A stretch of 64,000 bases of DNA. Origin: Mytilus galloprovincialis. Its lineage: Eukaryota; Mollusca; Bivalvia; Mytilida; Mytilidae. Location: NCBI RefSeq assembly GCF_965363235.1, contig NC_134849.1, forward strand, positions 52,336,122 through 52,400,121, in the 5' to 3' direction. Below are positions 19,438 through 61,204 of the stretch, in pieces (within the stretch, counting starts at the first letter, position 1; every line of letters begins with the position of its first letter). The position numbers and the translations under genes were made by a program. Below the pieces are notes generated by a model. That model had not been told where the DNA came from, made no database searches, and was given only the letters and a program-made list of their open reading frames with translations.

Positions 19438-20499
19438 TCGAATAAAACAAGTTTAAAGGCCAAATTCATAACAAAGTTGAGGAATATATTCCTTGGGTTG
19501 GAAATCCTTTGCTATTTTAAAAGGCCAAAGTTTAGAATAGGACAGGGACTCAAAATAGAGAAAAAAGAGAAACAGCTAGAGGTCAGAATAATATTAGTCA
19601 TGATGACTGAGCTTGAAATACACATGTCAAGCTCTTACTTGCGTGTCCCGAATCTAGATTAGAAAAACTCAAATGCGCTTTGAAGAGTTAAATTAACATT
19701 ATTGCATGCACGCGATATTTTAGCGCACGAAATAGTAAATAGAAAGCATACGCACTGATACCCAAGAACAGAATACGTATTAGCGTCATCACATATATTG
19801 ATTGAAACGAATGTCAAACTATCTTCTCCACGTGGTTTGACACTTGAAATGTGATCTATAATGTGAATGAATCAAGACGTGTAGAATAGTTGGTCATCAC
19901 TGGACAGTGAATACAATTTTTACAACAGTACTATAGTACAAATACTCAGTCTATGGAAGAAGCGTATCGATAAAAACTTGTTTTATATCATATAGCGATA
20001 TTGTCTAATATCAATTGTAAATATGCAGACATTCCATGCGAAAAATGTTGTTTTCGGCAACGAAAAATTAAGAAAATACTAACTTTAAAACTTATTTTTC
20101 ATATATAAACAATTTTCAAAACCGTACCAAAGTACAAATACTGTAGATGTTATATAAAGGTTAAACTATGAAAATATTCAAAATGGCCGCTTCCAAACCA
20201 TCAATATATGAAGTCCTCAGATGACAGTCCTTGTCAGCTGTGATGCATGTACCATATGACTATATAATACCTTCCTGCAGCAAGCGTTTAACTAACTAGT
20301 ACAAGTGAACACGGTTACCAAGGAAGTCGAAAGTTGAAAGTCGAAAATGGCGGGAGATACGGCCATTTCTAAATGGCGGCCGCTTGATCTCTACAAATTT
20401 ATAAAAAACAAGAAGTAATTGTAACAGGATGGTGTTACGAAGTCTCCCAAACAAATCTCCCATAACTCGCCATTCATATGGTCCCATGTTCATTTGATT

Positions 20500-28045: not shown

Positions 28046-28674
28046 AGACTTACACATCGATAACCTCAGTCTAGAAAAAAGTGTTTGATCCTATAGTAAT
28101 ATTATATAAGTTACTGGAAGTTGTTAATAAATTTAGTGTTATTATTAAATCAGACTATATCACGTATCTAATGTTTTATAGGTACAAAAAAAAGAGATTA
28201 AAACAATGAAAGACAAAAAAAAAAAACCCAAAAAACAATGGATTCCCAAGTAATGATTCAAATGGTCAATACCAACAATTTTACGTAGCGTTCACTGTTT
28301 AACCTACTCCAATATTTGTGCTAGATTGTTTGCATGCAGTACGTTATCCAGTTAAAATGAAAATTTAGGAAGCAAATCATGCGTTCGCGAGCATTAAAAA
28401 GCAGTAATTTTTGTTCTATGATAAGTTTTGCATTTTTTGTCGTTTTTTTCAATGTGCTTTGTCTGTGTGGCTTTTTGTGTTTCTTTCTTGTGTGTGGTTT
28501 GGCTCTAGATTTGTACTGATACATCTAGTCATTGTGTTATTCAGCCGTGGTAAATGTTTGTTAATATATTTGTTTGATTCTATAGTGATTAAAATAATAA
28601 TACAACGTAGAATGCTTTATCCCTATTTTGACATTTTTACCTATGATGTCTGTTTTTTTTCTTAAATAAAGGCA

Positions 28675-29150
28675 ACAGTAGTATACCGCTGTTCAAAACT
28701 CATAAATCCATGGACAAAAAACAAAATCGGGGTAACAAACTAAAACCGAGGGAAACGCATTAAATATAAGAGGAGAACAACGACATAACACTAAAATGTA
28801 ACACACATAAACAAAATCCCACGAGAATAACAACTATAACATATATAACATTAAAACCAAATATATGAATCTGGGACAGACAAGTACCGTGACACGTCTT
28901 ACCGCAATGCAAATTTACACTCAAAAATAAGAGAAAACAAACGACACAACGTTATAATGTAATACACACAGAAACGAACTATAATATAACAATGGCCACA
29001 TTCCTGACTTGGTACAGGGCATTTTTAAAGGAAAAAATGGTGGGTTGAACCTGGTTTTGTGGCATGCCAAACCTCGCACTTTTATGGCTATGTGAAATAT
29101 AACATTAAAATGACAACACAGAACTACAATATAAAACATCACTGTAGACT
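28675..29150 (-). repeat. Dispersed repeat, family 2, inverted copy
   Basis: The left part is the reverse complement of 660-790. The right part has 'ggtgggttgaacctggtttt', also seen at about 50890. No gene is visible. Confidence 0.65.
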
Positions 29151-30150
29151 GTCATAATAGTAAGAGTTTGAGCTAGCTATAGAACCAGGTTTAACCATGC
29201 GAAAATGCTTGAACCAAGACAGTAACATGACAATTGTTGTCCATTTATTTGGTGTATTTGAGATTTTGATTTCGCCCCATGACTCGGGACATTCTGTTTT
29301 GAATTTTCCTCAGAGTTCAGTTATGTTTTGTGATTTTACTTTTTGTTCATAATCTAACATGCTTCATGTTTGACATGTACGAATACTTATCGAAGAAATG
29401 AACTATTATGCATAACATGTATTTATCGACTAAATGAACTGTAATTATACATAATCATGTATTTTTGTTCGTCACATATGCTCTGTTAAAATACACAAAT
29501 ATATCAGTAGGTGTTTTACCTGGTAAGTTAAAGTATGCATAATTTTTTATACTTTGTTGGATTGTTACATTTTTTTTAATGAGAACTACTGAAAAGTTAA
29601 GAATTAGAGGAGACGTATATTTTAAGGTAAGCTTTCTTTTGTAAATTAAATTTGTTATTCTGAAGATAAAAAAAAAGAAGTTAGAACTTCAATATTTAAA
29701 TGGACAGTTTAAATTCCTAATCGTTTACAGTTTACTTTAGACATTTGCGTTTTGGAATTCAATTACTGTAAGATTTTTGATTAACACTTTCTTTCTAAAT
29801 AGTATACATTATATCGGTAAGAAAAAAATGGTTCTAATTTTTCGCGATGACATTAATAGATTTATCATAAACATTTTTTATTGATAATTATTCATTATAA
29901 ATAGTAATATTTATAAAAATGAAAAAAAATATATAGTCAATTATAATCTAGTTTATTTTTTATTGATATTTTTACCTGAGTTTACATGTAAAATGAATGC
30001 ACGCAAATGTAATCAAAAGCTGCGCGCAAACGTAAAACACTTTAATCCCCAAATGCGCGCAAACATAGTGCGCCCGTTAACATATTTCTTTTCAGGCTTA
30101 AATTTAATCAAAGGTATCAAAATTTAACTTGATCTCTTTATTTTTTGTAG

Positions 30151-30330
30151 ATATTTGTTATTTTCAGCCAGTAATTGGTCAATATAAAATGTTTTTCGCA
30201 GAAGTGATAGTCCGTAAATCGGCAATTGCATCTCTTGTTTACTTTCTTGCAATTATTCTTCCTGAACGGAAAGTAGATCCACCCGGAATCTATGAGAAAC
30301 CCTTCACAGAAATGTATGATTATATTGTTG
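30151..30330 (+). CDS. GMC gene 1 exon 1 (or first visible exon)
   Basis: A T-rich tract and TAG acceptor at 30150 are shared with gene 2 (54528), so the exon probably begins at 30151 and an unseen upstream exon exists. The first ATG in the conserved frame is 30189-30191 ([20 protein letters not shown]), residues 1-47. The donor is GTTG then GTAAGC, phase 1. Confidence 0.8.
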
Positions 30331-33300
30331 GTAAGCTTTTTTGACGTGACTATTTTTGCTTAAAATAAGAAATCATGTAGGGTAACTACAGCCGGCAAGC
30401 CTTGGTTGACTCCGCTTATTGCTTGACTGAAAGGTTTGACGAGTGCAGCTTATTTTTAAAACGAAATAGTTATCAAAGGTACCGGGATTATAATTTAGTA
30501 CGCCAGACGCGCGTTTCGTCTACATAAGACTCATCAGTGACGCTCAAATCAAAATAGTTATAATGCCAAACAAATAAAAAGTTGAAGAGCAATAAGGATC
30601 CAAAATTCCAAAAAGTTGTGCCAAATACGGCTAAGGTAATCTATGCCTGGGATAGAAAAATCCTTAATTTTTCGAAAAATTCAAAGTTTTGTAAACAGAA
30701 AATTTATAAAAATGACCACATTATTGATATTCATGTCAACACCGAAGTGCTGACTATTGGACTGGTGATACCCTCGGGGACGAAACGTCCACCGAAAGTG
30801 TCATCTATTTTTCTTCATAAATGATGGTCAATGTTGTGGATGATGAAAATGTCGGTTAACGATTGTATACCTTTATTCATGATACATTGTCCGACCATTT
30901 AATGTGGCAATATGTAACTTTAAATCAACGAGATAAATTTGTTTGTAGTCAACATGTTCAATATATACTAATCTTGTCATTTGTAATAGACTCATGATAT
31001 TTTCTTTTTCATAATTTAGTACACATATAGTCAGCTTTTATTATACATGGTATATGGTATCAAATATGTTTCTTTTTCACAACCTACTGACATTAAATAA
31101 CATCTTATTTTTAGCGGCGGTTAGGTCTTTTAAAGAAATGAGAAATGGGGCGCTCTGAATCAAAACCGATCATAAAGTTTTGTAAAATTACATCAATATT
31201 GATGTTTGTTATCGTGTTTAATTAGAATACTCTACATACCTTGCAATATTAGATATACGTCACCTGTAATCAATCTTGTGTTTGACTTGTTAAAGGCAGA
31301 TCAATGAAATATTGGTATTCCGATCAAAGTGTTACGCGTAATGTATTTGTTTAAACAGAATTGTTTAGACAGGTCCTACTATTTTCTTTATCAATCCAAT
31401 TGATGTTGATAGGTTTTAGACACACGTTAACTTCGTATTGAACTGCTATCAAGCCGTTAAACAATAAATTGAACTGCTATCAAGCCGTTAAACAATAAAA
31501 GAAACAGTCTGGTTCAATCAAAGACCAAGTGTGCTTCAAACTTTCATTGTTCCTTTGACCGATAAATAGACAATAACTGTTTAGTGTCTTTAAATATCAG
31601 CTGTATTTGTATGAGGCTCAGAAACAGATGCAGTGCGAGTTTTAGCGAGATATTATTCCTGTTTCGAGCAATTTAAAGAACATAAACAGTTATTGTCTTT
31701 ATCCTGCAATCAATATTGTATATTGTTTTTGCTTTGACACAAAAACTCACATGTTTGAGCTCACCCGGCCCGAAGGGCCAAGTGAGCTTTTCTCATCACT
31801 TGGCGTCCGTCGTCGTCCGTCGTCGTGCGTCGTCGTCGTTAACTTTTTACATTTTGAACTTCTTCTAGAGAACCACTGAATGGAATGAAACTAAACATGG
31901 CATGAATGTTCCTTATGAAGTGCTGACCAAGTGTTGTTACTTTGTAGCCGATCCAACATCCAAGATGGCCGCCAGCATGGGAACTTAGTTTAACATAGGA
32001 CCCTATGGGAAATGCATACAAATGACTTCTTTTAGAGAACCACTGAATGGAATAAAACAAAACACAGCATAAATGTTCCTTATGAGGTGCTGACCACGTG
32101 TTGTTATTTTGTAGCTGATCCATTATCCAAGATGGCCTCCAGCGGAGGACTTAGTTTAACATAGGACACTACGGGAAATACATACAAATGACTTATTTTA
32201 GTGAAACACTAAATGGAATGAAACCAAACATAACATGAATGTTTCTTAATAAGATACTGACCAAGTGTTGTTATTTTGTTGCCATTACAACATCCAAGAT
32301 GGCCGCCAGTGGGGGGACTTAGTTTAATATAGGACCCTATGGGAAATGCATACAAAAGTCTTCTTCTAAGGAACCACTGAATTGAATGAAATCAAACATA
32401 GCATGAATGTTCCTTTCCTTATGAGGTGCTGGCCAAGTGTTGTTACTTTTACCCAAATTTTATATTTTTTTATATGATTTCAAAAACCCAAGTAGAATCA
32501 GGTGAGCGATACAGGCTCTTGAGAGCCTCTAGTTGCATTTATTGTCAATTTAAAATTCCCTGAAGCCCTCGTAGTAATACTAAAATCACACATTCAGATT
32601 CAGCTGGAGATGGGTTCATAAAAAAAGAACGTCGAATAGTCAACAATAATACATCGCCCGAGGTGAATAATTATCTATTCTAACATGACAACTTATTTCA
32701 ACAGTAGAAAAAAAATAACAAAACATTGTGTAATTTTAAACAGAAGTGGACGAGTTGTTCTACGCTTCAGAATATGAACCGAACTCGACATTCACGTAAT
32801 ATGTATGCTGAAATAGACATGGCTGATTTTCTTAAACATGTAAACATTCAAGTTTTGAAGTCGATGATTGTCGTCGTAGAAAATACTGCTATATGTTTGA
32901 CTGTTATCAAAAACATGATTCTTATTTCTCTGAAGAAATGTTCGAAAACTAGCAGAACGTATAAAAGTAATCGCGAATTCGCATTAGGTAAAACAATACG
33001 TCATTGGAATGCGACTGCAATACACATCTGTAGATCACGTAGAAATTAATAAACATGTTGTTTTCTATTTTTTACATCACTGGGTCGATACCTCTGCTAA
33101 TGGACTATCAGTCCCCGGGAGTATCATCAGCTCAGTAGTGAATGCTTCAGTACTGACATGATTTAACAAACTTTACTAAAAATTTTCGTTTATAAATTTT
33201 CAAATTATATTGAAACTAAGGTTTCAACTCCCGCAGGCAAAGTTGGCTTTAGATGAATTTGGCTATTTCTATTAGATATTTTTGACATAGAGCTCTTCAA

Positions 33301-36300
33301 CGATTTTCGGTACTTATACATCTTCAGATTTTAAATGTTTGGCTTTGAGCGTTCCTGATGAAGGTAAATCCAGAAAAGCGCTTCGGACGCAAGAAATTAT
33401 TAAACGTGTAGTTTTACTTTTACTTTTTTTACTTTTCTATATTGGTTAGAGGTATAGGGGGAGGGTTGAGATCTCACAAACATGTTTAACCCCGTCGCAT
33501 TTTTGCGCCTGTCCCAAGTCAGGAGCCTCTGGCCTTTGTTAGTCTTGTATTATTTTAATTTTAGTTTCTTGTGTACAATTTGGAAATTAGTATGGCGTTC
33601 ATTATCACTGGACTAGTATATATTTGTTTAGGGGCCAGCTGAAGGACGCCTCCGGGTGCGGGAATTTCTCGCTACATTGAAGACCTGTTGGTGACCCTCT
33701 GCTGTTGTTTTTTATTTGGTCGGGTTGTTGTCTCTTTGACACATTCCCCATTTCCATTCTCAATTTTAGTTTTCCATTTTATGTTCATACAACACTAGTC
33801 CGGCAGTGGGTGGAGCTTTAGAGCGATATCTGTATAGTATACAGATACAGCATAGCGATATCTGTAGGGCTGTATCTGTTTATAAGACACCTAATTGTAG
33901 GATAAAAGAAGTTCTAAAACACGACTATTTATCAAGTGAATTTACTGTACGGCTAGCGACTACACAAGGTAAACTTTAGTTTTTTTGTAATTATATTTTG
34001 TAGTGGGAGCTGGTTCTGCAGGTAGTGTAGTTGCCACTCGGCTTTCGGAAGATTGTGATACTTCAGTTCTTCTGCTGGAAGCTGGAATATCAGATTTGGA
34101 ACCTGATGACGTAACTCAAATACCATCTCTATGGGCTTCCCTCATAGGTTCAGAAAAAGATTGGGGATATCGTACTGTTCAACAAAAGTACTCCCATCTT
34201 GCTTATGAAAATGAGGTAATATCTTTTTTGATATAAATAATTTTTTGAATAAAGTAAATGTTGACAATGGAACTTCTAATAGGAACTCCTTTTACGGCTA
34301 AAACTGTATTACTTTTACTATGAAGTTTTGAAAAAAATCATATCCTGGAATTGAAAGTTCATATACCTTACTATTTTTTCAAAGGCCAAATTATAGGACT
34401 GTGCGGCATATCGATGTTCAACGTGTATATGCCCGAACTTCTCATAGTTTAAACTAACACTAATTTTCATAATTACTCCTACTTCCACTTTAGGGTTACC
34501 ACATATTTCAATATAATCAATATACACATGTATATTTACTGGTAACATTCCAAAGTTATGTCTCTATGAGATGCAACACAAAGAGCATGACTTGGAACCA
34601 GTATGTAAACAAAATTAATTTTCTATAAATAATCTAGATCTCCCCAAAAAAGGAGTAGTTTGAGAAACAGCTGTATTTACAATACACAACCTAATCAAAC
34701 ATTTATTCAAATAGAAAACTCTCTGAAACCAGTTTTTCTCACATGAATACTCATTTACCAGAATTATAGCCTTATAGAAATTACTGCATACACTCAAATT
34801 TTTACTTCACAGTACATTTTTATACCCTCTCCCCTATTTCAATTTTTGAAAGAATTTGAAACTCTAATTATTGACAACTTACCCTATTTAAAATAAATAT
34901 AACTATTTACACCACTGGGTCGATGCCACTGCTGGTGGACGTTTCGTTACCGGGGGTATTACCAGCCCAGTAGTCAACACTCAATATTGTGGTTATTTTT
35001 TTTTATAAATTTCCCGTTTACAAAACTTTGAATTTTTCGGAAAACTAAGGATGTTCCTATCCCAGGAATAGATTACCTTAGCCGTATTTGGCACAACTTT
35101 TGGGAATTTTGGATCCTCAATGCTCTTCAACTTTGTACTTGTTTGGCTTTTTAGATATTTTGATATGAGCGTCACTGATGAGTCTTATGTAGACTAAACG
35201 CGCGTCTGGCGTACAAAATTATAATCCTGGTACTTTGATAACTATTTACACCACTAGGTCGATGCCACTGCTGGTGGACGTTTCGTCCCCGAGGGTATCA
35301 CCAGCCCAGTAGTCAACACTTCGGTGTTGACATGAATATCAATATTGGGGTCATTTTTATAAATTTCCCGTTTACAAAACTTTGAATTTTTCGGAAAACT
35401 AAGGATGTTCCTATCCCAGGAATAGATTACCTTAGCCGTATTTGGCACAACGTTTTGGAATTTTGGATCCTCAATGCTCTTTAACTTTGTACTTGTTTGG
35501 CTTTTTAAATATTTTGATATGAGCGTCACTGATGAGTCTTATGTAGACGAAACGCGCGTCTGGCGTACAAAATTATAATCCTGGTACTTTGATAACTATT
35601 TACAACACTGGGTCGATGCCACTGCTGGTGGACGTTTCGTTCCCGAGGGTATCACCAGCCCAGTAGTCAACTCTTCGGTGTTGATATGAATATCAATATT
35701 GCGGTCATTTTTATAAATTTCCCGTTTACAAAACTTTGATTTTTTCGGAAAACTAAGGACTTTCCTATCCCAGGAATAGATTACCTTAGCCGTATTTGGC
35801 ACAACGTTTTGGAATTTTGGATCCTCAATGCTCTTCAACTTTGTACTTGTTTGGTTTTTTAAATATTTTGATATGAGCGTCACTAATGAGTCTTATGTAG
35901 ACGAAACGCGCGTCTGGCGTACAAAATTATAATCCTGGTACTTTGATAACTATTTACACCACTGAGTCGATGCCACTGCTGGTGGACGTTTCGTCCCCAA
36001 GGGTATCACCAGCTCAGTAGTCAACATTTAGGTGTTGACATGAATATCAATAATATGGTCATTTTTATAAATTTCCTGTATACAAAACTTTGAATTTTAC
36101 GAAAAAATAAGGACTTTCTTATCCCAGGCATAGATTACCTTAGCCGTATTTGGCACAACTATTTGGACTTATGGATCCTCAATGCTCTTCAACTATATAT
36201 TTGTTTGACTTTATAAATATTTTAATATGAGCGTCACTGATGAGACTTTTGTAAAAGAAACGCGCGTCTTGCGTACTAAATTATAATCCTGGTACCTTTT

Positions 36301-39300
36301 ATAACCAATTAAGATATAAATTCACTTAAAATGTTATAGAGATGACTGCTAACATCTGATTTTTGCATAACTTCCAAGCATAGTTATAGTTATTGCATAA
36401 AGACATTTGAAATCATAAAATCATAGCGTTTACAAGTTAAATTGTATGTTTTATGACCCAGGGGTAGACAATTTTACATGTTTTATGCCTCTGGGGCCTC
36501 AAATTTCCTAAATTATTTTGCTGTTTCTAGCAGTATAAAATATTTAGTACATATTCAGGATAGAACACATTATTGTTAGTATTGTTGATATATTTGTGTA
36601 TTGCTAGCTTGTATTTTCTGATACCCGCGCAGACAAAAAACGCAGATTTAGCCGTTACTGCTTACTATTTGGCTATCGACAGGACACAAACACCCCGAAG
36701 CCAAACCCGATATGAATTTCATTGACCCTATTAATACCGTATTAGGACAATTGAACTCTGTGTAACCAGTTTATCCTGATTTTGTTATATATATTCAAAT
36801 TCAATATTAGGAGACTATCAACCAAATTTATTTTAATTTAAAACTGAGAAAAAATATTATGATATTCAAAAATACTTAACATTTTTGACAGGAAAGATGC
36901 ACATTTTATTTTTCTATTTCATATATTATAAACATAGAGAGCTTACATAGCACAAGGCAAAGTGCTTGGGGGTTCATCGTCGATAAATGCACAAAATATT
37001 GTAAGAGGCAGTCGTAACAACTATGATCAGTGGGAACACGAAGGGGCAGTCGGTTGGGGATACGACGATGTTCTGCCCTTCTTCAGAAAACTCGAAAATG
37101 CTACAGATACATCTTACGGAGACTCAAGTAGGATATACTTTTATTCTTGGAGAATACTATTGTAGTATTATATTTACCAAACCAAACTTTACTCAAGGTT
37201 AGTAAATGAAGACATCCAACTAACGGAAATAGGTACTAATTTTTACGAACAAATAGACATTGAATACTAAAACCGATGCTTTATTACTATCTGAGTTGTA
37301 ATTCTATCTGTTTTTTTTCATTTTTTCTCTCCGTTTAAAACGTTAGGATATATATTAAATTAAATGAGAAATAACATGATGTCATATTATTAGTTACATG
37401 GTGTATTGTTGACCTAATACGATATATATCGGGTGAGTAAATTCTATACGTGTTGAGAGTTCTTCCATATCGAATTTACTGACCCAGATATATCGTATTA
37501 CGTCACTAGCACTCGTGTAACGAATTTATCCAAACGAGTATCTACACATGTGATATTTTGACTAGCGGCCTAGCAAAGTGATCATGTCTTAAAAGTTAAA
37601 ATACTACTTCAATTTGTCCATACAGAACACAAATGCCAACAATGAATTTTGTTTAGCTTTTATGAATTCATTTCGATCGTTCATTACATGTATCAATTTC
37701 TTCATCTGTTGAATCCTATCTGATTTCTTTTTTTCTTAAAAGGCCAAGTGAGCTTTTCTCATCATTTGGCATCATTCGTCCGTTGTCCATCGTCCGTCGT
37801 CGTCGTCTTCGTCCGTCGTACATCGTCCGTCGTCGTCGTCGTTGTCGTCCGTCGTCTTCGTCGTAAACTTTTACAAAAATCTTTACCTCTGAAACTACTG
37901 GGCCAAAATCAACCAAACTTCGTCACAATCATCATTGGGGTATTTATTGAAACAAATGTGTCCAGTGATCCGGCCAACCAACCAAGATGGCTGCAGTGGC
38001 TCAAGATAGAACATAAGGGGGTAAAATGTAGATTTCGCTTATAAATCTGAACCCAATGCATTTAGAACAAATCTGCCATGGAGTTAAATTGTTTATCATA
38101 TCAAGATAAACTACCCTGTAATTTCAGATGAATCGTACAACCGGTTGTTGGGTTGCTGTCCCTGAATTAGTAATTTTAAGAAAACTTTCCGGTTTTGGTT
38201 ATTATCTTGAATATTATTTAGATGAGATAAACTGTAAACAGCAATAATGTTCAGCAAAGTAAGATGTGCAAATAAGTCAGCATGACCAAAATGGTGATTT
38301 GACCCCCTTAAGGAGTTTTTTCCCTTTATAGTCATTTTTTACCAGTTTTTCTTAAATTTTTGTTATCTTTTACAAAAGTCTTCTCCTTTGAAACTACTGC
38401 GCCAAATTTAACATAACTTAGCCACAATAATAATAAGACTATCTAGTTTCAAATTGTCTGTGGTGAACCAGCCAACCACCCAAGATGGCCGCCATGGGTA
38501 AAAAACATAGGGGTCAAATTTAGAGTTCGGCTTTTAACTCTGAAACCAAAGCATTTAGAGTACATCTAACATGGTGTTAAATTGTTTATCTATCTGCCCT
38601 GTAATTTTCAGATGAATTGTACAACTGATTGTTCGGTTGCTGCCCTCCGATTGGTAAACTATAAGGACATTTTGTTTTTAGTTATTATCTTGAATATTAT
38701 TATAGATATAGATTAACTATAACAGCATAATGTTAAGCAAATAAAAATCTACAAATAAGTCAACATGACCAAAATAGTCAGTTGACCACTTATATTGTCC
38801 TTTATACATTTTTAGCAATTTTCATTAATTTGGTAAATTTTTGTAACTTTTTACAAAATGTTTTCCTCTCTAACTAAAGGGCCAAGTTCATTAGAGATAG
38901 AGAAAATTGCAAGTAGTAAGAATGTGCAGTAAAATAAGATCTACAAACACATCACCATCACCAAAGACAATTGTGTCATGAATCCATCTGTGTTCTTTGT
39001 TTGAGATGCACATAGACCAAGGTGAGCGACACAGGCTCTTAACTAGTTTGTTTTCTAGGGAAATTAACACCATTATGCCTACAATAAAAACTTGGTAGCT
39101 TTAACTATGTTTTATGAACTTATTTCAACTTTTTATCATTAATTTCCTCGTCTAAATAACCCTTTCAGAGTTTTCCTCAACACTTTGTTGTTTTTATAAA
39201 GGGTTATGGGATCTTTTTTGTTTTGATAGTGGATATACTCCTTACTTACCTCATATGGTAACTAAGCATGTATGATAACTAAACCTATAGTTTTTGAGAC

Positions 39301-42300
39301 ACCTTGTATCAAATACACATAGTCAGTCCTTTAACCAATCAACTATAGGAGGAAAGAGTAGAGTTGTTATGCCATTAAAATAAATTTACAAGCTGTTTTG
39401 TTAGATTTTGAAAATCATTCCACATCTCTTTATTGTTGTAATTAAATTAAAATTCCTTGAAAACCTAAGGTAGATATATACCAAGCATAGAGGCCTTAGC
39501 CAAGTTGGACATAACCTTTTTAAACTTATATTCATAATTCCATGTTTTTCAAATTCTTAATATTATTTATAATCTAGCTGTTTAAATTCAATGCAAAATG
39601 AAGATCTGAAGTATAAAGCTATTACCTATTATCTTTGGTAAGGTTTAAATGTTGCAAATGGAATGGAGCAATCTTATATCATTATTGGCAAAATGAGTCT
39701 TTATACATATATATATACCCTTTCTATATACTGCTTATATTTTTTAAATTAATCACAAAGTACACCAAATTATCAAAAATCATGAACAGAAGGATTGGTT
39801 TATAATCAATTGCAGACAATTTCGTTTCAGTCATATATGAAAGTTCAAATGTTTTATAGCTTTACGAGGACTTCATGGACCTATAGTAATAAAAGAGACT
39901 ACTGGGAGTATTTTACAGCCATTTTACCAAACAGCGGCAAAAGAAATTGGATTTTCTACAGTAGATTGTAATAGTGATGATCCGATAGGTAGTTTACAAG
40001 TTAATAATTTAATTTTGAATGTAACGCGTCTTCTGATTAGATGATTGTTTTTTTTGTCTATCAGCTCATGGACGTAATTTCTTCATGTGACCGTGACGTC
40101 TTCAACGTTGTTTTTCTTATAATTTACTCTGGCTTTAAATTAAATTATAAGGAATGACTGTAATATTTTGTCTGTCTATTAGAAATGACATCATAAATGC
40201 CGTGCACACAAAACAAACAGTAATATGCTAAGATCTGATATGTAGATTATTAGGGTGGTTTTTCACTATAATGAATACACATACGTGTCTTGCACGGTCG
40301 GTAGTTATTATCTAGAGCGATCAAAGAAAACTGAAAACAAGAGTTTACAGTTTGCTGCCTTTATTCAAATCTAGTTAATCTATTTTACCATTAAACAAGT
40401 CAAAATAAAAACAAAATAAGTAAAAACATAAAATGAAGGATGCACTTATACTAAGAAAATTAAATCTAGAATTTAGTATTGATACTGTCAGTCATAAGAG
40501 CATTAGTAAAGGAACAGAGTGAGCTAAATTAAGTCCTGGTTGGATCGGACCGGGGTTCTTAACAAATTAATTTGTTTAATGAAACTATCAAACAAAACTC
40601 TCAGAGAAGTGTGATTATCAACTAGTTAAAAAAAGCAGGTTTAACCCGCCATTTTTTAACAATGATTTAAAAGTCACTTTAAAACTCAACATATACCCTC
40701 ATGACACTTACTAAAGAGGAAATCCTTGATAATAGGTCTGTTCTATGTTCCTTTTGAATTTCAACCAAAGATATAGAACTATATCTTACATAACTGTATT
40801 CAGTACCCATGGCCAATAAGTGTCCTTACAAATAACGGTATACTGGTAGGTCTTCCAATTACTCCACGAAACCTCTTTCTAAATAATAAATATCTATTCC
40901 ATCAGCAATCAAAGCTTAAAAGCTATTGCGAAACTGTTTGTTTTAGAGGTGGCGTGAATCAGATGTTGATACTAAACAATTCCAAAGATCTATTAGAGTA
41001 CATACAATCTAAGACTCTTTTATCTTACAATAGTATTACAACATTTGACTTTTTCTACACTTTACAAAAGTACTCCCCATTGCAAATAAAAGACACATTA
41101 AAAGAGTTGGTAATGCTTCGTTTCATAAAAAAAGAATAGCCAACTTAAATGCAAGTATCTTGTCTTAGGGAGGAATAAATCCTTCCTTGAAAAGAATTCC
41201 TCTTATTCAAACAAAACATTCTTGATTTCAACTTTTCCTACATATAGTATTTATGGTCTTTAACTCAGCCCAATATAGCAGGAAACAGTTTGTTTGTTTT
41301 ACATATAATATTTTAGGTTTTTGTAAAAATCAGATGAATGTCAAAGACGGCAAACGTTGCAGTACATCGACCTGTTACCTTAGGCCAGCCTTAGAAAGAC
41401 GCAACTTGCAAGTCAGTTTGCGATCCCATGTAACAAAGGTAACGAGTTTCTGTTTCTATATGTTTTACTTTAAAGAACGTCTATGACCATGCGCAATTCT
41501 TAGTACTCTACTATCAAAGTCGGAACAATTAAGAGATTGCAAATAATGAAGAAGAGAGATAACTCGTTATTGCCCTTAGTAAATGTTGTGTTATAGTATT
41601 ATTGTACAAGCGGTTTCAATACTGGAGGTATCTTTGCTACCATGTCCATAAAAGCAATAGGTTTTATAGAGAACACAACAGTCCCGATAAAACTGTGATA
41701 CATGCACAACAATTTTAAACGGCAACGGCAGAGCATAAGCCGGCAATACATACGTATAGTTTATACTTTGATTTTGAATTTTACGCCATCATGAGTTGGT
41801 TGGCCGTTATGAAATAACCTTTTCACAAATGATATCGGATATGTTCCTTACGTCGTAACTACAATCCTCTTCCCTTTAATGAATGTGACCTACCGAACTA
41901 GACTATTTACCGGATTTGTTCTAACATGAGCAACACGGCGGGTGCCACATGTTGAGCAGGATCTGCTTACCCTTCCGGAGCACCCGATATCACCCCTAGT
42001 TTTTGGTGGGGTTCGTGTTGCTTATTCTTTAGTTGTCTATGTTGTATAATGTGTACTATTGTTTGTCTGTTTGTTTTTTTATTTTTAGCTTTATTTTTTT
42101 ATTTATGAGTTTGACTATCCCTCTGTTATCTTTCGTCCCTCTTTTACTCTATATACAATTTAATAAGTAATTCATAACTCTTGAGTATGTCGCCAAGACT
42201 AAATGACAGCACGGAATTCCAATGGACGGTAATAAAAAGTTCTTAAATGTGTTTATTTAAGGGCGAAATTTGTCTAAAGTGAAAATGACTGCCTAACACA

Positions 42301-45300
42301 ATTTTCAATTTCCGGGTCAATACCTCTGCTGGTGGACTATCAGTCCCCGAGAGTATCATTAGCTCAGTAGTTAGTACTGATAAACCTTTCTAAAATTGTC
42401 CTTTTATAAATTTTGAAATTATTTAGAAACTAAGGTTTTAACTCCCTTAGGCAAAGTTGACTTTAAATGAGTTTGGCTATTTATTTTAAGTATTTTTGTC
42501 ACATAGGTCTTCAACGGTTTCGGCTTCGAATTTCAAACGTTTGGCCCTTTGAGCGTTCCAGAGGAAGGTAAATCCAGACAAAGCGCTTCGGACGCATATA
42601 ACTTATTTTACGTCTTGTTTTCATTTTTTTTTACAATAAAAATGACTATGAATCTAATATTAAATTTGAAATTAAAATTTATCCTTCAACTTAAGTGCAT
42701 TCACATTGGAATTATTTTTCGATATACAAATATTTTACTAAATTATGTTTGAATCCCATTGTATATCTTTCCTGCTTGTAGATAAAAACTAAACATTTAT
42801 CTATTATCTATGACATACAGGTTTTAATAAGAAATAACAAAGCTGTTGGAGTTGAATTTATCAAAGATGGAAAGAGACAACGGATATTTGCAAAACATGA
42901 AGTTATTCTTTCAGCTGGATTCATACACTCTGCTCAGATTTTGATGCTCTCGGGAATCGGCCCTCGCAAACATCTTCAACAAATGAAGGTAATATACAAA
43001 AAAGGTGTTTTCACGTTTTGCAATTGGGAATACGTAGGATATCTCGCACGTTTTGGTAGCTTTGTTTTTGTTTTGTTTTTGCTTACACATACATTCTAGT
43101 TGAAACCGATTAACTATGTTTTTCGTTATCGTTGGTCCAAAGCAGAAATTGAAATGAATGCCACTCACCAATTTCATGCAAACTTTTGTTGGATTTAAAG
43201 AAGTCTTATTCGAAGTAAACAGCTGAACAGCTTATTCATATTCAGATAACATTTCACTTCAATCTTCAATGATTATTTACTGCTTTTTACTATCTTTTGT
43301 TTATTTGTGTCGTCTGCGTGCTTTATCATTGATGTATATGCTATACTTTCATTGATTTGTAGTTGATTGGTTTCTTTTATGAAAATATGTTAATATGTAC
43401 ACTATTTCAAAATTCAAAACGTGATAAACAAATTTGGAGTAAGATGTACTTATTCAAACAAAAAATGAGAAGCATTGAAATGTTTCGTCCAGACAATACA
43501 ATAGCTCATTTGAACAGAAACACCAAAAAAACGTGTTTTATTCTACTGAATATACATATGCATACGTTGCCAATAGTAGTTTACCACCGTACACATGTAA
43601 TAAATCGATGACGTACATCAATCAATGTAATAAACAAAATCTAACGACATGAACTCATGAGAAAACAAGAGCCACACATGTAGATATGGAAGCGCTTCTG
43701 CTAATCATGAGGTTATGTCATAATATAAGCGAATAATCAGCTTTTACAATAGGTTAAATAAACCCATCACGATTCAAACTTTATACTTACACCAGACGCG
43801 CGTTTCGTCTACGAAAGACTCATCAGTGCCCCTCGAAACAAAAATGTTCAGCTAAGAAAATATCAAAGATATGATATGTCTCCTTCTACAGATACCATTA
43901 AAAGTTGATCTACCTGTTGGACAGAATTTGTATGATCACTTGCTGTTTGCTGTTCAATATAACATAACTGCGCCATTGAATATTAACCAAAAAAAGGCTT
44001 CAGAACCAGAAAGAATTCTTGATTATATTTTCAACAGAAAAGGCAAGTAATGAAACTTAAAACATTTAATGATTTTTTTCAGGTTCCAATTTTTCATGCT
44101 TACGTTTGTATTATTTTTATCAAATGTGCCACGAAACAATAACTCTAAAGTGATAAGATTCATTTATTGTGTAAAGTGTTATTTAAAATACCGTTAGGCA
44201 TTTGCATAATATAAAGTAAACAAAATTGAATACAAAATTTTTAAAACAGGGTATTTGGTACAGGCGTTTGTTTTTATTTACTTAAGACCTATCAGTAATG
44301 CTTGAGTAACAAATACCAAATACAAATAAACAACACATTATAACGGTCTAAATAGAAAACTATGTTTTATCATATGACTACGCCGAGTAAACACATGAAA
44401 AGTAAAAATTGAAAAACCTTCGAATTATAAACACGTCTATATCAATATCTTAATATGTATTTTGTAGGACTTTTTTCAAGAAACGCAGTTGAAGGAATAA
44501 TTTTTCAAAATGTCAACCCGCTATATACAAGAGGTCCACAAATTGAACTTCTGTTAACTAACCGGGCCTACGAAGAGGGTTTTGTTCGTAAGCCATATCC
44601 GGCATTTAAAAAAGAAGTATATACAATAACTTTAAATTAATTTTAAGTATCTTTTTGAACATTTTTTCTGTTCTAGGACAGCAGTCTAGTTTAGCTGGAA
44701 TACAAACCACAGATTAACGTACCAAAAGACTGTACTTTTGAACGATTCTATTCAAATCTTATTTTTACAAATTTGAAGTGTATATAATATATGTTAAATA
44801 GGTCAATGAGTAAGTCTCAATAATGTTTAAGTTATGTTTAACCCCAGACAAACAATTTGCATATCGTAATTAACTAACAGTGAAGAGAACTTAATTTGTT
44901 CTCTAAACAAATATTTTCATCGTGATTGAATTTTGTTAAATATTATTTTTGCAAAAATATCTATTTAAGGTGGTACCCAACACTTTCACTAAAATTAATT
45001 TGGCTCGTTTAATTTTCATAAAATTTTGACAAAATATTTACTTTGACCCTTGGACAAAAATATAAAAATTTTAAAAATTTTGAACCAACCGTTTTGTCAG
45101 AAAAATTACACTGGTTATATAGCAATTTGACAAACACCAATTTTGATCATTGAGAAGCTTAATAGTCCTTTTACAACACAACGTAATTAAAACGTTTAGC
45201 TGACTTTACAGAGTTATCTCCCTGTAGTGTTAGGTACCACCTTAAATTTAAAATCTAAGGCAATGCGGTTCTAATAACACGACACACATAACATTAGGGT

Positions 45301-47990
45301 GTTTTACACATGGTTAGTATTTCGTACAAATGTTACATTTCAGATTGTAAAAGAACATTTAAAACGTGTTGCTGAAAACAGTTTTATAGCGAGAATGTTC
45401 TTATTACAACCTAGAAGTAAAGGTTATTTGCGGCTTTCGGACAATTCGCCATTTAGTTCTCCTATTATAGATCCACGATATCTTTCTCACCCAGAGGACA
45501 TTGAAGACTTTGTAAGAGGTATAATAATGATGTAACAACTATTCTGTAACACCTTGATAGAAAAAGTAAAATAACGATACTGAGCTCTAAAGGAAAAATC
45601 AAAACGGAAAGTCCCTCATCAAATGAAAAATTAAAACGGAAAGTCTCGAATCAAATAGCAAATCGAACAAATCAAACGAATGGATAACAACTGTAATATT
45701 CTGGACTTTGTATAGGCATCTTCTTATATAGAAAATGGGGAATTAAATCTGGATTTATAGCTACTCAACCTCAACAGTCGTATTAAATTTAATTATATTG
45801 ACATCGATGTTTGAACAAATCAAACAAACAAAAAATGTCAAAAGTAGGGGTATAGCAGTCAACACTTGTTATAATATTAATCACTATAAAAACAAACAAA
45901 TCAACAAAGAATCACAAACAGGCAAACATACACAGCACATCAGTAAAAACGAAAATGAAGATTAAACAACACAATGACGGGATGTACAAGTACTGAGCCT
46001 CGTCAAATGGACTTTACCACAAACAGTATTAACAGTAGAATGGAAAGTATTGTTCGACATGTACTTGATTGAAAGTACCAGTATTGCAATAATTGACATT
46101 ATCTATCGTTAAAATAGTGTTTTTGTTTCAATTAAGGTGGTACCCAACACTTTAACTAATAAAATAAACGGTACCAATTTTCTTGCACCAGATGCGCATT
46201 TCGACAATACATGTCTCTTCAGTGATGCCTTTAACCAAAATATTTGAAATCCAAAGCTTACATAAAAGATGAAGAGCTATAATCAGAAGGGTCCAAAAAG
46301 TATAGCCAAATCCGTGAAAGGAATCGGAGTTTTGCATAAGGGAGACACATTGGCTCGTTTAATTTTCTTAACATTTTGACAAAGTATTTACTTTGACCCT
46401 TTGACTAAAAAATAAAAGAATTTAAAAAGTTGAACCAACTGTTATATCAGAAAAATTACACTGGTTATATAGCAGTTTGACAAACATTTATTTTGATCAT
46501 TGAGAAGCTTAATACTCCCTTAACAACAGAATATAATTAAAACGTTTAGCTGATTTTACAGAGTTTTCTCCCTGTAGTATTAGGTACCACCTTAATTTAT
46601 TGTTTAATTTTAAAATTATTCCCTTTGTGAAAGCAGTCCAGATTTTTTTTTCACTTGTCAATAGTCAATTGCATACGTTTATATATTTTTACAAAATTCT
46701 GTAATCACAATTATTGGAGAAAATATATTTAACAAAAACACACAATAAACTTTCTGTCAATAAGATATTTCACATAAGGTATATCATACGCTATTGTATT
46801 GGATCACGTTCAAATATAATTTCAGGCATTCGGTTTATGCGTTCATTAGAACAAACTCGAGCATGGAAATCTATCGGGGCTACTTTGGTTAGACAAGATG
46901 TACCTGGACATTGTAGTGAATACATTTTTGATTCGGATAATTACTGGAGGTGTATTGGACGTCATTTTATGACAACGGCATCTCATTTTATAGGCACATG
47001 TAGAATGGGGTCAGTTAATGACCCGTCGGTTGTTGTTGATTCAAGATTAAGGTATAGTTAATTTCACAACATATTTTGTATCGTACCTCAAAACATCTAC
47101 AACTGTCTTTTCAAAATTATTATTCATAACAGATTTTTATTTTTAACAACGTTTGAAATGAAAGGTAAAGGAACCACTACTGTTTGGACTCTTTGATTTT
47201 AAGATTAAAAATTATATCATGGAAATATTCTGAAGTCATTCGTCGTCTGCCAGTTTTTTGTACATTGATGCTTTGTATTTTCTGTATGTTGCTTGCGCTT
47301 CAAACAAAATTCAAACACTGAATGAAAATAACCTCATGTTAAGATATTTTTATGTGTATGAAATTATAAGCCAATACAAAAAGATAGTGTTTAAAAGGTA
47401 CAAGGATTATAATTATACATTTTAAACTTTCTTCTTCATATTCTTAATTTATTGTTAATTCTGTTATTCAAATATCGTTAATGTAACGCATACGAAGTAT
47501 GCAATATTCGTGTAATTCTCTGCTTCAGTTATGTTGTAAGTGAACATATTTTGTGAATGATTTAATTGTTGATGTATCACGCCTTCTGGTTGGCTGAACG
47601 TCATAACGTGTGACCGTTACGTCCTACACGTTTTTTTAATTAATTATTCCTTAAAAATGGAATCTAGGATAACATTATCAGTACTGACTAATATATATTT
47701 TTTTGACTACTCGAAATAACCTTAAATAAAATATAAACACTTTTAATGCAGCAAAGTTTCGATTTTATTTCATAACAGATATGAACAAATATTACAGTGG
47801 CCATTCTTTAGTTTTACAAATCAACATACTTTTGTCTAACAGGGTTATTGGTATCAAGAACCTCCGAGTGGCAGATGCATCCGTTATGAGATATCTTCCT
47901 TCAGGTCATACAAACGCACCAGCCATGATGATTGGGGAGAAAGCTGCAGACATGATCAGACGTGATAGAACGCACAGATATAACATCTAG
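30189..47990 (+). CDS. GMC-family flavin oxidoreductase, gene 1, complete, 11 exons
   Basis: Exons 30189-30330, 34004-34215, 36938-37127, 39860-39988, 41317-41438, 42821-42988, 43892-44042, 44468-44616, 45344-45518, 46826-47051 and 47843-47990 sum to 1812 nt: 603 residues and a stop, normal for the family. All phases join without a stop. An N-terminal hydrophobic stretch (about residues 10-24) may be a signal or membrane anchor. [12 protein letters not shown] (residues 43-54) is the FAD-binding dinucleotide motif. [11 protein letters not shown] (125-135) and [18 protein letters not shown] (296-313) are the two GMC signatures. [10 protein letters not shown] and PSGHTNAP supply the catalytic pair His533/His577. 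The family oxidises alcohols using FAD (choline dehydrogenase, glucose dehydrogenase and relatives). The substrate cannot be deduced; a His-His pair, rather than His-Asn, resembles glucose oxidase and aryl-alcohol oxidase. An upstream in-frame segment before the ATG is partly conserved in gene 2, so an upstream exon is possible. Confidence 0.93.
30465..30812 (-). mobile_element. Single retrozyme-like unit in intron 1
   Basis: This is one monomer, in inverted orientation relative to the 34.9-36.3 kb array, with the hammerhead at its plus-strand left end (30500-30543). Its plus strand keeps the open frame found opposite the ribozyme in array units ([36 protein letters not shown]). Confidence 0.8.
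30500..30543 (-). ncRNA. Hammerhead ribozyme, intact core
   Basis: Read on the minus strand: stem I GCGTCA, core CTGATGA, stem II GTC with a 7-nt loop and GAC, GAAA, palindromic stem III (ACGCGCGT), cleavage after GTC, then TGGCGT pairing back to stem I (6 bp, one G-U, one U-G). All invariant core bases are present. The two-base-pair stem III resembles hammerheads that act as dimers. Confidence 0.85.
31438..31499 (+). repeat. Tandem duplication, 2 x 31 bp
   Basis: The unit 'ttgaactgctatcaagccgt' plus 'taaacaataaa' occurs twice without mismatch. Confidence 0.95.
31755..32532 (+). mobile_element. Hairpin-ended repeat (family 5) with internal about 170-bp tandem units
   Basis: The left end is a hairpin (AGCTCACCCGGCCC, GAA, GGGCCAAGTGAGCT) followed by CGTCGTC repeats. 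The right end is 'aggtgagcgatacaggctct' then a small hairpin ending in 'ctctag'. Inside, a unit containing 'gaaccactgaatggaatgaa' and 'catccaagatggccgccag' repeats about four times. Related copies: 37741-39045 and, inverted, 63210-64000. No protein is coded. Confidence 0.75.
32700..33079. other. Intronic sequence, nothing recognised
   Basis: A 107-codon plus-strand open frame is present (32726-33049), but it lacks homology within the window, splice support or a domain I recognise. I do not call it a gene. Confidence 0.4.
33080..33405 (+). mobile_element. Second-lineage retrozyme-like unit
   Basis: It shares the order of the 354-bp units: 'cactgggtcgatacctctgc', a 'tcagtccccgggagtatca' block, 'agctcagtagt', then 'ctaaggtttcaactccc', ending in a hammerhead-like motif (33349-33390). 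A sister copy is at 42310-42600. Confidence 0.65.
33349..33390 (+). ncRNA. Hammerhead-like ribozyme, second lineage
   Basis: Stem I GCGTTC, core CTGATGA (33355-33361), a short GG/CC stem II flanked by an A-A mismatch, GAAA, palindromic stem III AAGCGCTT, C as cleavage residue (TTC), then GGACGC pairing with GCGTTC over 6 bp. The fold matches the hammerhead plan, but the A-A at the base of stem II replaces the usual G-C, so activity is uncertain. Confidence 0.6.
33425..33775 (+). repeat. Dispersed repeat, family 3, 5'-truncated
   Basis: It closely matches 6600-6990, including 'gaggtatagggggagggttg' and 'ggggccagctgaaggacgcc'. Confidence 0.85.
34004..34215 (+). CDS. GMC gene 1 exon 2: FAD-binding motif
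   Basis: Residues 48-118. The acceptor is TTTTGTAG followed by TGGGAGC, completing GTG (Val48) of VVGAGSAGS. The exon contains TSVLLLEAG, where the Glu binds the FAD ribose, and ends YSHLAYENE at a phase-0 GTAATA donor. Confidence 0.92.
35169..35212 (+). ncRNA. Hammerhead, array unit 1 (core mutated)
   Basis: CTGATGA and all stems are intact, but GAAA reads TAAA. The G at that position is essential for catalysis in the family, so this copy should be inactive. Confidence 0.8.
35523..35566 (+). ncRNA. Hammerhead, array unit 2 (intact)
   Basis: All conserved residues are present: CTGATGA, GTC-loop-GAC stem II, GAAA, palindromic ACGCGCGT stem III, GTC cleavage site at 35558-35560, and stem I GCGTCA/TGGCGT. 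The predicted cleavage is between 35560 and 35561. Confidence 0.88.
35877..35920 (+). ncRNA. Hammerhead, array unit 3 (core mutated)
   Basis: The stems and GAAA are intact, but CTGATGA reads CTAATGA. The lost G is an invariant core residue. Confidence 0.8.
36231..36274 (+). ncRNA. Hammerhead, array unit 4 (stem II lost)
   Basis: CTGATGA and GAAA are kept, but the distal strand of stem II is AAA instead of GAC, abolishing pairing, and stem I gains a mismatch (TTGCGT). Confidence 0.75.
36938..37127 (+). CDS. GMC gene 1 exon 3: first GMC signature
   Basis: Residues 119-181: [20 protein letters not shown], then [20 protein letters not shown] and FRKLENA. The acceptor is ACATAG at phase 0; the donor is TCAA then GTAGGA at phase 1. 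Confidence 0.92.
37128..39859 (+). other. GMC gene 1 intron 3
   Basis: Its two ends (about 37128-37350 and 39360-39859) align with intron 3 of gene 2. The middle is occupied by family 5 sequence (37741-39045). Confidence 0.75.
37741..39045 (+). mobile_element. Hairpin-ended repeat, family 5, large copy
   Basis: It starts 'aggccaagtgagcttttctc' with a CGT/CGTC tract, contains two about 510-bp internal units (starting near 37866 and 38377, each with 'accaagatggc' or 'cccaagatggc'), and ends 'aggtgagcgacacaggctct'. It has the same termini as the 31755-32532 element but different internal units. Confidence 0.75.
39860..39988 (+). CDS. GMC gene 1 exon 4
   Basis: Residues 182-224: [20 protein letters not shown], then [18 protein letters not shown]. 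The acceptor is TTTATAG; the donor is ATAG then GTAGTT. The length (129 nt) is identical to exon 4 of gene 2. Confidence 0.92.
40500..41270 (+). pseudogene. Reverse-transcriptase retroelement remnant (N-terminal part)
   Basis: Broken frames give [51 protein letters not shown] and then [15 protein letters not shown]. These follow the order of a bivalve retroelement RT that I recognise. In that family TFDF is followed by STLYT, here degraded. Stops and frameshifts abound. It ends just before exon 5. Confidence 0.6.
41317..41438 (+). CDS. GMC gene 1 exon 5
   Basis: Residues 225-265: [19 protein letters not shown], then [20 protein letters not shown]. This is the usual 'R.S....YL.....R.NL.V' region of the family. 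It lies between two retroelement remnants (40500-41270 and 41790-42160). The donor is AAAG then GTAACG. Confidence 0.88.
41790..42160 (+). repeat. Retroelement 3' end and tail
   Basis: It contains 'ttacgtcgtaactacaatcc', 'gcgggtgccacatgttgag', 'cggagcacccgatatcaccc', and the 'tatctttcgtccctctttt' tail motif. The inverted equivalent at 58080-58270 is contiguous with RT-coding sequence, linking the tail to that element. Confidence 0.7.
42310..42600 (+). repeat. Second-lineage retrozyme-like unit, inactive
   Basis: It aligns with 33080-33405. The ribozyme position (42553-42595) keeps stem I (GCGTTC/GGACGC) and stem III, but CTGATGA reads CAGAGGA and GAAA reads GACAAA. Confidence 0.65.
42821..42988 (+). 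CDS. GMC gene 1 exon 6: second GMC signature
   Basis: Residues 266-321: [45 protein letters not shown]. Acceptor TACAG, donor AAG then GTAATA, phase 0-0. Confidence 0.93.
42989..43891 (+). other. GMC gene 1 intron 6
   Basis: Nothing was recognised except the hammerhead fragment at 43789-43832 on the minus strand. Confidence 0.7.
43789..43832 (-). ncRNA. Hammerhead fragment, core intact, stem I weak
   Basis: On the minus strand CTGATGA, GTC-loop-GAC, GAAA and ACGCGCGTC are intact. The flanking stem I strands (GGGGCA and TGGTGT) pair poorly. Adjacent body sequence of the repeat is missing. Confidence 0.7.
43892..44042 (+). CDS. GMC gene 1 exon 7, GC donor
   Basis: Residues 322-371: [20 protein letters not shown], then [11 protein letters not shown]. 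The reading frame continues into exon 8 only if the donor is AAAAG then GCAAGT, a consensus GC-AG splice site. The nearby GT (44047) would give a stop in exon 8. Confidence 0.88.
44043..44467 (+). other. GMC gene 1 intron 7 (GC-AG)
   Basis: A 425-nt intron beginning GCAAGT and ending TTTGTAG. No repeat was recognised. Confidence 0.8.
44468..44616 (+). CDS. GMC gene 1 exon 8
   Basis: Residues 372-421: [16 protein letters not shown], then [18 protein letters not shown] and PAFKKE. Acceptor TTTGTAG; donor AAAGAA then GTATAT. An alternative donor at CGTAAG gives a stop in exon 9. Confidence 0.85.
44965..45245. mobile_element. TTAA MITE in intron 8
   Basis: A 281-bp element. The left end TTAAGGTGGTACCCAACACT and the right end AGTGTTAGGTACCACCTTAA are inverted repeats, with TTAA at both tips (piggyBac-type target). 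A second copy is at 46132-46595. No ORF. Confidence 0.88.
45344..45518 (+). CDS. GMC gene 1 exon 9
   Basis: Residues 422-479: [20 protein letters not shown], then [20 protein letters not shown] and [18 protein letters not shown], the substrate-domain strand region typical of GMC enzymes. Acceptor TTTCAG, donor AGAG then GTATAA. Confidence 0.92.
46132..46595. mobile_element. TTAA MITE interrupted by a retrozyme-like insertion
   Basis: Both ends match the MITE at 44965-45245 (TTAAGGTGGTACCCAACACT; ATTAGGTACCACCTTAA). Between about 46160 and 46350, some 185 bp absent from the other copy interrupts it. That insert begins with a hammerhead on the minus strand and continues with diverged retrozyme body sequence. 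Confidence 0.85.
46185..46228 (-). ncRNA. Diverged but intact hammerhead ribozyme
   Basis: Minus strand: stem I GCATCA, core CTGAAGA (the variable N is A), stem II GACA with loop and TGTC, GAAA, palindromic stem III ATGCGCAT, cleavage after ATC, then TGGTGC pairing GCATCA. Each stem differs in sequence from the array copies but still pairs, so the RNA fold has been conserved. Confidence 0.82.
46826..47051 (+). CDS. GMC gene 1 exon 10: first catalytic His
   Basis: Residues 480-554. It ends with [13 protein letters not shown] and VVVDSRLR, containing the conserved active-site His (about residue 533). Acceptor TTTCAG, donor TTAAG then GTATAG, phase 2. Confidence 0.92.
47052..47842 (+). other. 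GMC gene 1 intron 10
   Basis: AT-rich; nothing recognised. Confidence 0.7.
47843..47990 (+). CDS. GMC gene 1 exon 11: C-terminus and stop
   Basis: Residues 555-603: [20 protein letters not shown], then [18 protein letters not shown], and a basic tail ending TAG. The second active-site position is His577, where many dehydrogenases of the family have Asn. Confidence 0.93.
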
Positions 47991-48075
47991 ACCCGTATTG
48001 ACTCAATGAAATATTTTATGGATTGAGTCGTTGAAATTATTTAATGTCTTGATAAAATGTGCTGTACTGAAACAG

Positions 48076-49130: not shown

Positions 49131-49640
49131 TTGTAAATGTACATACTCTGACAACTACCTCGTGGTTGCTTCGGTAAAATAACGAAGGGATGATTTCAAT
49201 TTCACCACCTAGAACACTTGGTTTAATAGCTACATTGTAAACACTAACTCTCTATCACAAAAATCATGATGAGACACACAAGCCATGGATTATCGTCGCA
49301 ACTTGATCATATATATTCCGTATAAAGTCGCTGCTTGTTATTTTTCTTCAAAAAAATGCAAAGTTTAGAATTAGGAAGCTGAAATGATCTCCTTTGTCAT
49401 AAAAATTTGTTTTCAACTGCCCCTTATTGTCGAATTTTAGGTGTGAGTCAAGATATGAGGCAGAATTAACTGTGTCTGTTGTATCCGTTATCTTAGATTC
49501 AATGTGATAGATGCGTATAACATGGATCGAACCGCAATTTAAATGCTTCGACGATTTACATTCAACAAGTCTACACATTTGTAAAGTAAATGCTGCGAAG
49601 GTCTGTTTGGCTTTTCTACACGTACACAACTATTTGCATT
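49130..49640 (-). pseudogene. Retroelement RT C-terminal remnant
   Basis: The minus strand gives YHIESKITDTTDTVNSASYL, DSHLKFDNKGQLKTNFYDKG and DHFSFLILNF. It parallels the remnant at 58080-58620 ([19 protein letters not shown]). The SASYLDL stretch is the post-YIDD motif of this retroelement family. Downstream frames are broken. Confidence 0.7.

Positions 49641-61170: not shown

Positions 61171-61204
<34 letters not shown>

Follow-up and report, generated by a model that had tools for sequence, protein, structure and literature searches.

A hammerhead retrozyme family in the mussel Mytilus galloprovincialis with near-fixed 3′ ends and continuous insert lengths, consistent with copying of an endless RNA template from an internal start

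Analysis of a 64-kb stretch of DNA from the mussel Mytilus galloprovincialis (hereafter, the window) revealed a tandem array of four 354-bp units carrying type I hammerhead ribozymes or their remains, and comparison with relatives elsewhere in the genome revealed that inserts of this family share a nearly fixed 3′ end a short distance past the hammerhead cut, have scattered 5′ ends, and vary continuously in length. The explanation we favor, with a probability of roughly 70%, is that the family is an animal retrozyme (that is, one without long terminal repeats, or non-LTR), whose RNA circle is copied from a fixed start until random fall-off, most likely by a Penelope-like enzyme. As part of the same explanation, the array in the window would be an aged genomic copy of such a retrozyme, decayed in part and composite in its ancestry.

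A preliminary description of this DNA had reported a tandem array with an exact 354-bp period, and this was borne out. Self-match and profile comparison placed four head-to-tail units at 34899–36311 on the forward strand, extending from circle position 32 to +42 in a numbering in which position 1 is the first base after the hammerhead cut. The bases following the four cut sites (35207, 35561, 35915, and 36269) are separated by three intervals of exactly 354 each, and the units match one another at an E-value of 0.0. Stop-to-stop frames of 94 and 98 amino acids cross the array on the minus strand.

The description had also claimed that a complete hammerhead motif recurs four times, and that did not hold. 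When the Rfam type I hammerhead model (RF00163, gathering score 34) was run on the whole window, three copies in the array were matched, at E-values of 2e-05 to 0.007, and all were under the gathering score. Copy 1 (35169–35212, +; 30.0 bits) reads GACTAAA, with core base G12 changed, and has its would-be cut at 35206/35207. Copy 2 (35523–35566, +), at which a match above threshold had been anticipated, scored 33.0 bits and so fell 1 bit short, with its core and helices intact and its cut at 35560/35561. Copy 3 (35877–35920, +; 25.3 bits) reads CTAATGA, with core base G5 changed and the would-be cut at 35914/35915. Copy 4 (about 36231–36274, +; would-be cut 36268/36269) keeps its core letters, has changes in stem II and stem I, and gave no RF00163 match at E-values up to 5. 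The names G12 and G5 follow the hammerhead core numbering, and both bases are important to the ribozyme. Judged from the letters, copies 1 and 3 have each lost an invariant core base and copy 4 has damaged helices, which leaves copy 2 as the sole intact hammerhead. A single cut at 35560/35561 is plausible, and only copy 2 is predicted to cleave in vitro. Because three of the four ribozymes are damaged, and the release of a unit needs two neighboring working ribozymes, two adjacent cuts are not expected and the array is probably inert. Self-cleavage of transcripts of this locus to unit-length circles, as had been proposed, would therefore be unlikely.

At the level of the family, hammerhead identity stood. 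The source assembly (1,384,861,812 bases in 331 contigs) contains 12,411 exact matches to a 35-base pattern with an intact hammerhead core (6083 forward and 6328 reverse), compared to 0 for the reversed control pattern. In a genome scan with RF00163, in which 74 of 224,653 first-look candidates were scored, 29 of the 37 reported matches were above the cut-off. In addition, hammerheads of types A/B, II, and III keep their helices by compensating changes. In an alignment of 12 rows drawn from the window and the sample described below, with stem II cut to two pairs owing to gaps in four rows, 92.7% of cells were paired versus 80.9% after shuffling; none of 500 shuffles reached 92.7%, and slid partners gave 50.0% at best. 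Two features of a non-LTR retrozyme are present, namely a type I hammerhead (at family level) and tandem units within about 150–450 bp, as dimers or more. A search of a collection of genomes produced two matches (L001 and L002), of which L001 was rejected, as by eye it runs into a gammaproteobacterium start codon and looks like a chance match. The viral collection searched gave no match.

To describe the inserts, we used as the main sample the first 100 listed places of the hammerhead pattern (contig C1, 73 kb to 12.9 Mb), which correspond to 79 stretches and 81 clusters, 55 belonging to subfamily A and 26 to subfamily B. Single-unit hammerhead intervals in the sample were 353–368, plus one of 336. 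At two loci (L025 and L029) the intervals were 145 and 225 nucleotides (nt), not one unit, and these are probably nested or neighboring insertions.

The 3′ ends of the sampled inserts were nearly fixed. Past the last cut, those of subfamily A typically continue to ...GGTACCTTTGATAACTATT and those of subfamily B to ...GGTATCTATGATGAGTTTATTT, after which locus-specific DNA begins. By alignment, the 3′ end lay at +40 to +44 past the cut in 45 of the 55 A clusters and at +46 to +50 in 21 of the 26 B clusters (66/81 together). Wider bands of +33 to +47 for A and +42 to +54 for B took in 51 and 23 clusters, respectively (74/81). Over all 81 clusters, the 3′ positions gave a mean resultant length of 0.92 (0.9985 after filtering to the bands). 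Mobilization by a Penelope-like element would be marked by 3′ ends fixed on an internal start that lies downstream of the hammerhead, and ends of this kind are seen in 66 of the 81 clusters by the narrow bands and 74 by the wide ones.

Places reached by other routes were compared as well, and these are partly free of the selection for a hammerhead that shaped the main sample. In the window, all nine places found by profile comparison extend across the cut, with ends from +12 to +43, and by eye the weak copies reach about +30. The stretches fetched for the analysis contained 34 further places as by-catch, nine of them in stretches fetched for an Rfam hammerhead; of the remaining 25, 14 have ends within +2 to +47. 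The tail pattern alone occurs 9,618 times in the genome, and we inspected 20 tail-selected places outside the hammerhead list. Retrozyme sequence extends beyond the search pattern in 18 of these, three of which (L098–L100) are one locus repeated; 15 of the 20 end within +41 to +50, and in the remaining five another unit follows at the stretch edge. L109, also selected by its tail, is the shortest of the clear inserts at 44 bp. The repeated locus (L098, L099, and L100, on C1 at about 2,395,900, 2,402,200, and 2,408,400) is one insertion with identical flanks at a spacing of ~6.2 kb, and looks like a segmental triplication.

A fixed 3′ end combined with 5′ truncation is a hallmark of short and long interspersed elements (SINEs and LINEs). 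The inserts show both, as they would if the family were an ordinary SINE moved by a LINE via a common 3′ tail, with a linear transcript that ends at +41/+48 and an unimportant hammerhead. At two tail-selected places (L090 and L093) the match to the retrozyme is only 29 bp, of which 21 are the search pattern, and another element with the same tail could be present there. However, the DNA upstream of these two matches neither each other nor any other sampled sequence, and they look like very short inserts. Moreover, a linear single-unit transcript cannot template inserts of 1.1–4.25 units, and the compensating changes preserve the hammerhead helices across subfamilies. We consider a SINE of this type very improbable.

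The lengths of the inserts ranged from 84 to 1502 bp, or 0.24 to 4.25 units, without a break at one unit. In bins one unit wide, the 74 in-band inserts numbered 45, 20, 5, 3, and 1 (49, 21, 7, 3, and 1 for all 81), and an exponential distribution was not rejected for the 74 (simulated p 0.14). The 5′ ends of inserts longer than one unit were spread, with a resultant of 0.20 and a Rayleigh p of about 0.28 for all 32 (about 0.36 for the 29 in band). They did not pile up at the hammerhead cut, as only 1 of 29 inserts longer than one unit began within 4 nt of it (0.74 expected), and the enzyme therefore seems not to run off a cut linear RNA.

These lengths also bear on whether the array is satellite DNA that expanded from a single unit through unequal crossing-over or slippage, with the hammerhead as a passenger. 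An exact period in tandem, head-to-tail units is what a satellite would present, and the private variants common to the upstream units of the window array (see below) could come from local multiplication. Such growth is expected to proceed by duplication of whole units, and this is not what the continuous lengths indicate: 45 of the 74 inserts are under one unit, with the same fixed 3′ end as the arrays, and inserts of 1.1–1.4 units with scattered 5′ ends are hard to derive by duplicating single units. We therefore give the satellite explanation very little credence.

Because the 3′ ends are fixed, copying likely starts at a fixed nucleotide, and because the 5′ ends are scattered and the lengths continuous, it likely stops at random on an endless template. 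Overall, the pattern agrees with target-primed reverse transcription that begins at a fixed internal position, as it does in Penelope-like elements, on a template without an end that is probably a circle. In the process we favor, the repeat RNA would be cut by its own type I hammerhead and closed into a one-unit circle, as has been published for mussel. A reverse transcriptase would then start, in a junction with target DNA, at a fixed nucleotide ~41 nt (A) or ~48 nt (B) past the cut, and copying would run backwards on the endless template until random fall-off. Stopping within one turn would produce a truncated single copy, and running on would produce a tandem array. The enzyme would most likely be that of a Penelope-like element, a kind in which copying is known to initiate at an internal site downstream of the element's hammerhead. 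The more specific proposition, that in an animal a covalently closed RNA circle is itself the direct template for retrotransposition, copied from one fixed base at the target for a random number of turns by a Penelope-like enzyme acting in trans, with the distribution of lengths kept in the genome, has in our estimation an even chance of being correct.

The subfamilies are visibly alike in the region that directly follows the start (about +44 to +125), and this well-conserved block would be the recognition site of the enzyme. A consensus fold of the block was obtained, but its covariation term (+1.62) has the wrong sign and 4 of 30 pairs show double changes, so a structure there is only suggested.

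The ancestry of the units within arrays provided additional data on the template. We counted private variants, meaning those common to two units and absent from all other loci. Unit pairs in subfamily A shared 6.07 per kb within arrays versus 0.21 between loci, a 29-fold difference (44 within-array pairs), and those in subfamily B shared 11.08 versus 0.71, a 16-fold difference (11 within-array pairs). Rare variants were present in all units at 15 of the 23 multi-unit loci; the rarity limit in these counts disfavors sharing between loci, a bias that the private-variant comparison avoids. In the window array, the 3′-most unit (35951–36304, +) had 0 private variants in common with the upstream units, compared to 2 per pair among those three. 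It shared 0 or 1 rare variants with the other units, and none was common to all four. Since the 3′ unit shares no private variants with the upstream three, the window array is, by this measure, a composite in which the three upstream units have one ancestry and the 3′ unit has another. It could, for example, be a three-unit insertion beside an older copy.

Within the same family, the template could instead be linear, a multimeric transcript of an array already in place that is left uncut and copied from the same fixed start. Such a template would likewise fix the 3′ end, scatter the 5′ ends, and allow lengths above one unit, and the 3′ unit of other ancestry in the window is what a mixed template of this kind could leave. 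We judge a linear multimer to be unlikely, as private variants are often common to the units of one array. In addition, paired single-unit intervals at a locus agree (353/353, 355/355, and 356/356), as if one unit had been recopied, with the caveat that a further interval at L018 measures 711 and presumably spans two units that differ in length. Furthermore, the mussel hammerheads studied in PMC7229834 cleave themselves at a kobs of about 0.1 per min, and circles were found there in excess over linear RNA.

Comparison with known systems supports the assignment of the family to a published class. The preliminary description had recognized a retrozyme-type repeat with type I hammerheads, correctly, as the same class has been reported from M. 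galloprovincialis itself, where repeats measure 350–390 bp, type I motifs number about 5000, and circular RNA is abundant (Cervera and de la Pena 2020, PMC7229834; parts consulted). Compared by description with the relevant parts of that paper, our family is alike in its type I hammerheads, its two similar ribozyme families, its unit size, and its thousands of copies. It differs in number, with 12,411 exact matches of one pattern here versus about 5000 motifs, and, in those parts, the fixed 3′ end and the length continuum are found here only. The newt satellite 2 and axolotl retrozymes, also covered in that paper's excerpts, are likewise hammerhead repeats (about 330–353 bp), although from vertebrates. 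Plant LTR retrozymes, as portrayed in the portions of PMC7761336 seen, resemble the mussel family in having a hammerhead and, as published for mussel, circular RNA, in forming dimers to tetramers in DNA, and presumably in being non-coding. They differ in having type III hammerheads, LTRs, a tRNA primer site, and 4-bp target duplications; flank words at 74 loci here gave no duplication of that kind.

The authors of PMC7229834, in the text available to us, describe Penelope-like elements as a strong candidate to mobilize retrozymes, and the discussion there does not settle how priming on the circle occurs or which enzyme does it. A review (PMC7761336, in part) states that animal retrozymes lack a conserved motif from which the mobilizing element could be deduced. 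In Penelope-like elements, as described in the sections of Frangieh et al. (2024, PMC11167929) that we compared, copying starts internally downstream of a hammerhead, genomic tails end on the start, and RNA beyond the start is required. The likeness to our family comprises the hammerhead upstream of the internal start, the 3′ ends on the start, and the tandem copies. Those elements differ in encoding the enzyme, and the anole element in the same sections starts 111–118 nt into its open reading frame (ORF), which by our own arithmetic is 85–92 nt past the hammerhead cut, versus about 41–50 here.

A candidate for the type of partner is present in the window. An ORF piece at 59307–60908 (+), apparently 5′ truncated, encodes a reverse transcriptase and a GIY-YIG domain, the pair from which we take it to be a Penelope-like element. 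Downstream, at 61061–61101 (+), we noted by eye a putative hammerhead-like relic of this element, where Rfam gave no match. Two genomic copies of the element are alike for ~70 nt past the relic cut, after which both run into (TA)n.

Several observations weigh against the explanation we favor. The only Penelope-like element compared ends, in its two copies, ~70 nt past its relic cut and not at 41–48. The main sample was picked by an intact hammerhead plus three bases past the cut, and crossing of the cut is built into it. Seven of the 81 clusters lie outside the wide bands (L022 on the minus strand, the two-ribozyme cluster of L045, L069, L076, L044, L057, and L062). Similarly, 11 of the 25 by-catch places outside the hammerhead-fetched stretches end elsewhere, a group that includes short fragments, places at stretch ends, and two subfamily II copies whose tail continues by eye. 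A laxer alignment extends two of the window copies past the tail, to +53 and +127. No target-site duplication was detected, the mean longest word shared by the flanks being 4.58 versus 4.54 for shuffled pairings (74 loci), and the whole unit folds no better than its shuffles (z −0.32). With respect to ancestry, 8 of the 23 multi-unit loci, including the window array, have no rare variant common to all units. When best blastn identity was used instead, 25 of 59 units were closer to a unit inside their own array, and all units were so in 6 of 22 loci; this test is confounded, as the outside matches are mostly short and to a conserved stretch. Lastly, DNA alone cannot tell a circle from an uncut linear multimer.

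Relatives of the retrozyme were found by profile comparison at nine places in the window, the array included, and on both strands. One of the others is a lone dispersed copy at 30464–30806 (−), 5′ truncated and with its 3′ end at +41, which has an intact hammerhead (30500–30543, 33.0 bits). Two old copies, at 33038–33412 and 42312–42601 (both +), belong to hammerhead subfamily III (AGCGCT in stem III), and a copy at 46178–46324 (−) is of subfamily II (CTGAAGAGACA...TGTCGAAATGCGCATC). The remainder are 5′ truncated: decayed copies at 7725–7993 (+) and 19374–19484 (−), a short copy at 43768–43848 (−) with a hammerhead core scoring 24.9 bits, and a very short copy at 3880–3938 (+) with its 3′ end at +43. 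A 23-base match at 47392–47414 was not counted as a copy.

The array had been placed in a sense intron of an oxidoreductase gene, and the location was upheld. A GMC oxidoreductase exon piece upstream of the array (33991–34215, +) joins in frame to the exon that starts at 36938 downstream of it, where the stretch 36938–37162 (+) matches GMC_oxred_N at an E-value of 5e-13. With GT at 34216 and AG at 36937, the array lies in sense orientation in the intron 34216–36937. The placement is not special, because relatives also occur at eight more places in the window, split evenly between the strands, and intact-core matches occur on both strands genome-wide; the sense orientation needs no special explanation. 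GMC oxidoreductase exon sets at 28500–48000 and 53400–63200 appear to be a tandem duplication, with DNA identities of 89 and 91% in the two exons compared. The paralogous intron was considered as an empty site for the array and rejected, as the introns do not align. The alignment between the two gene copies stops at 59236, near the apparent 5′ end of the Penelope-like piece.

Other repeats were noted in the window. These are a perfect 177-bp tandem duplication (12864–13219), a longer array whose tandem repeats mix periods of 124, 256, and 378 bp (20489–21903), and a repeated coding-like stretch (58204–58637, minus strand, and 49152–49516) that gives the impression of another retroelement. A match at 6355–6419 resembling a selenocysteine insertion sequence (SECIS) scored 30.9 bits against a gathering score of 35 and is possibly due to chance.

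The class to which the array belongs is already known from mussel, and its fixed start was not found in print. Searching papers for literal sequence gave no match, and the literature searched, which lay outside the supplements of PMC7229834, contained no mention of the fixed start, the length continuum, or the one-template test, so that overlap with a supplementary model or sequences there is possible. Together, the fixed start base, the adjoining conserved block, and the distribution of lengths offer a testable handle on which form of the RNA is copied and which enzyme starts the copying. They also suggest that tandem hammerhead repeats may be single insertion events.

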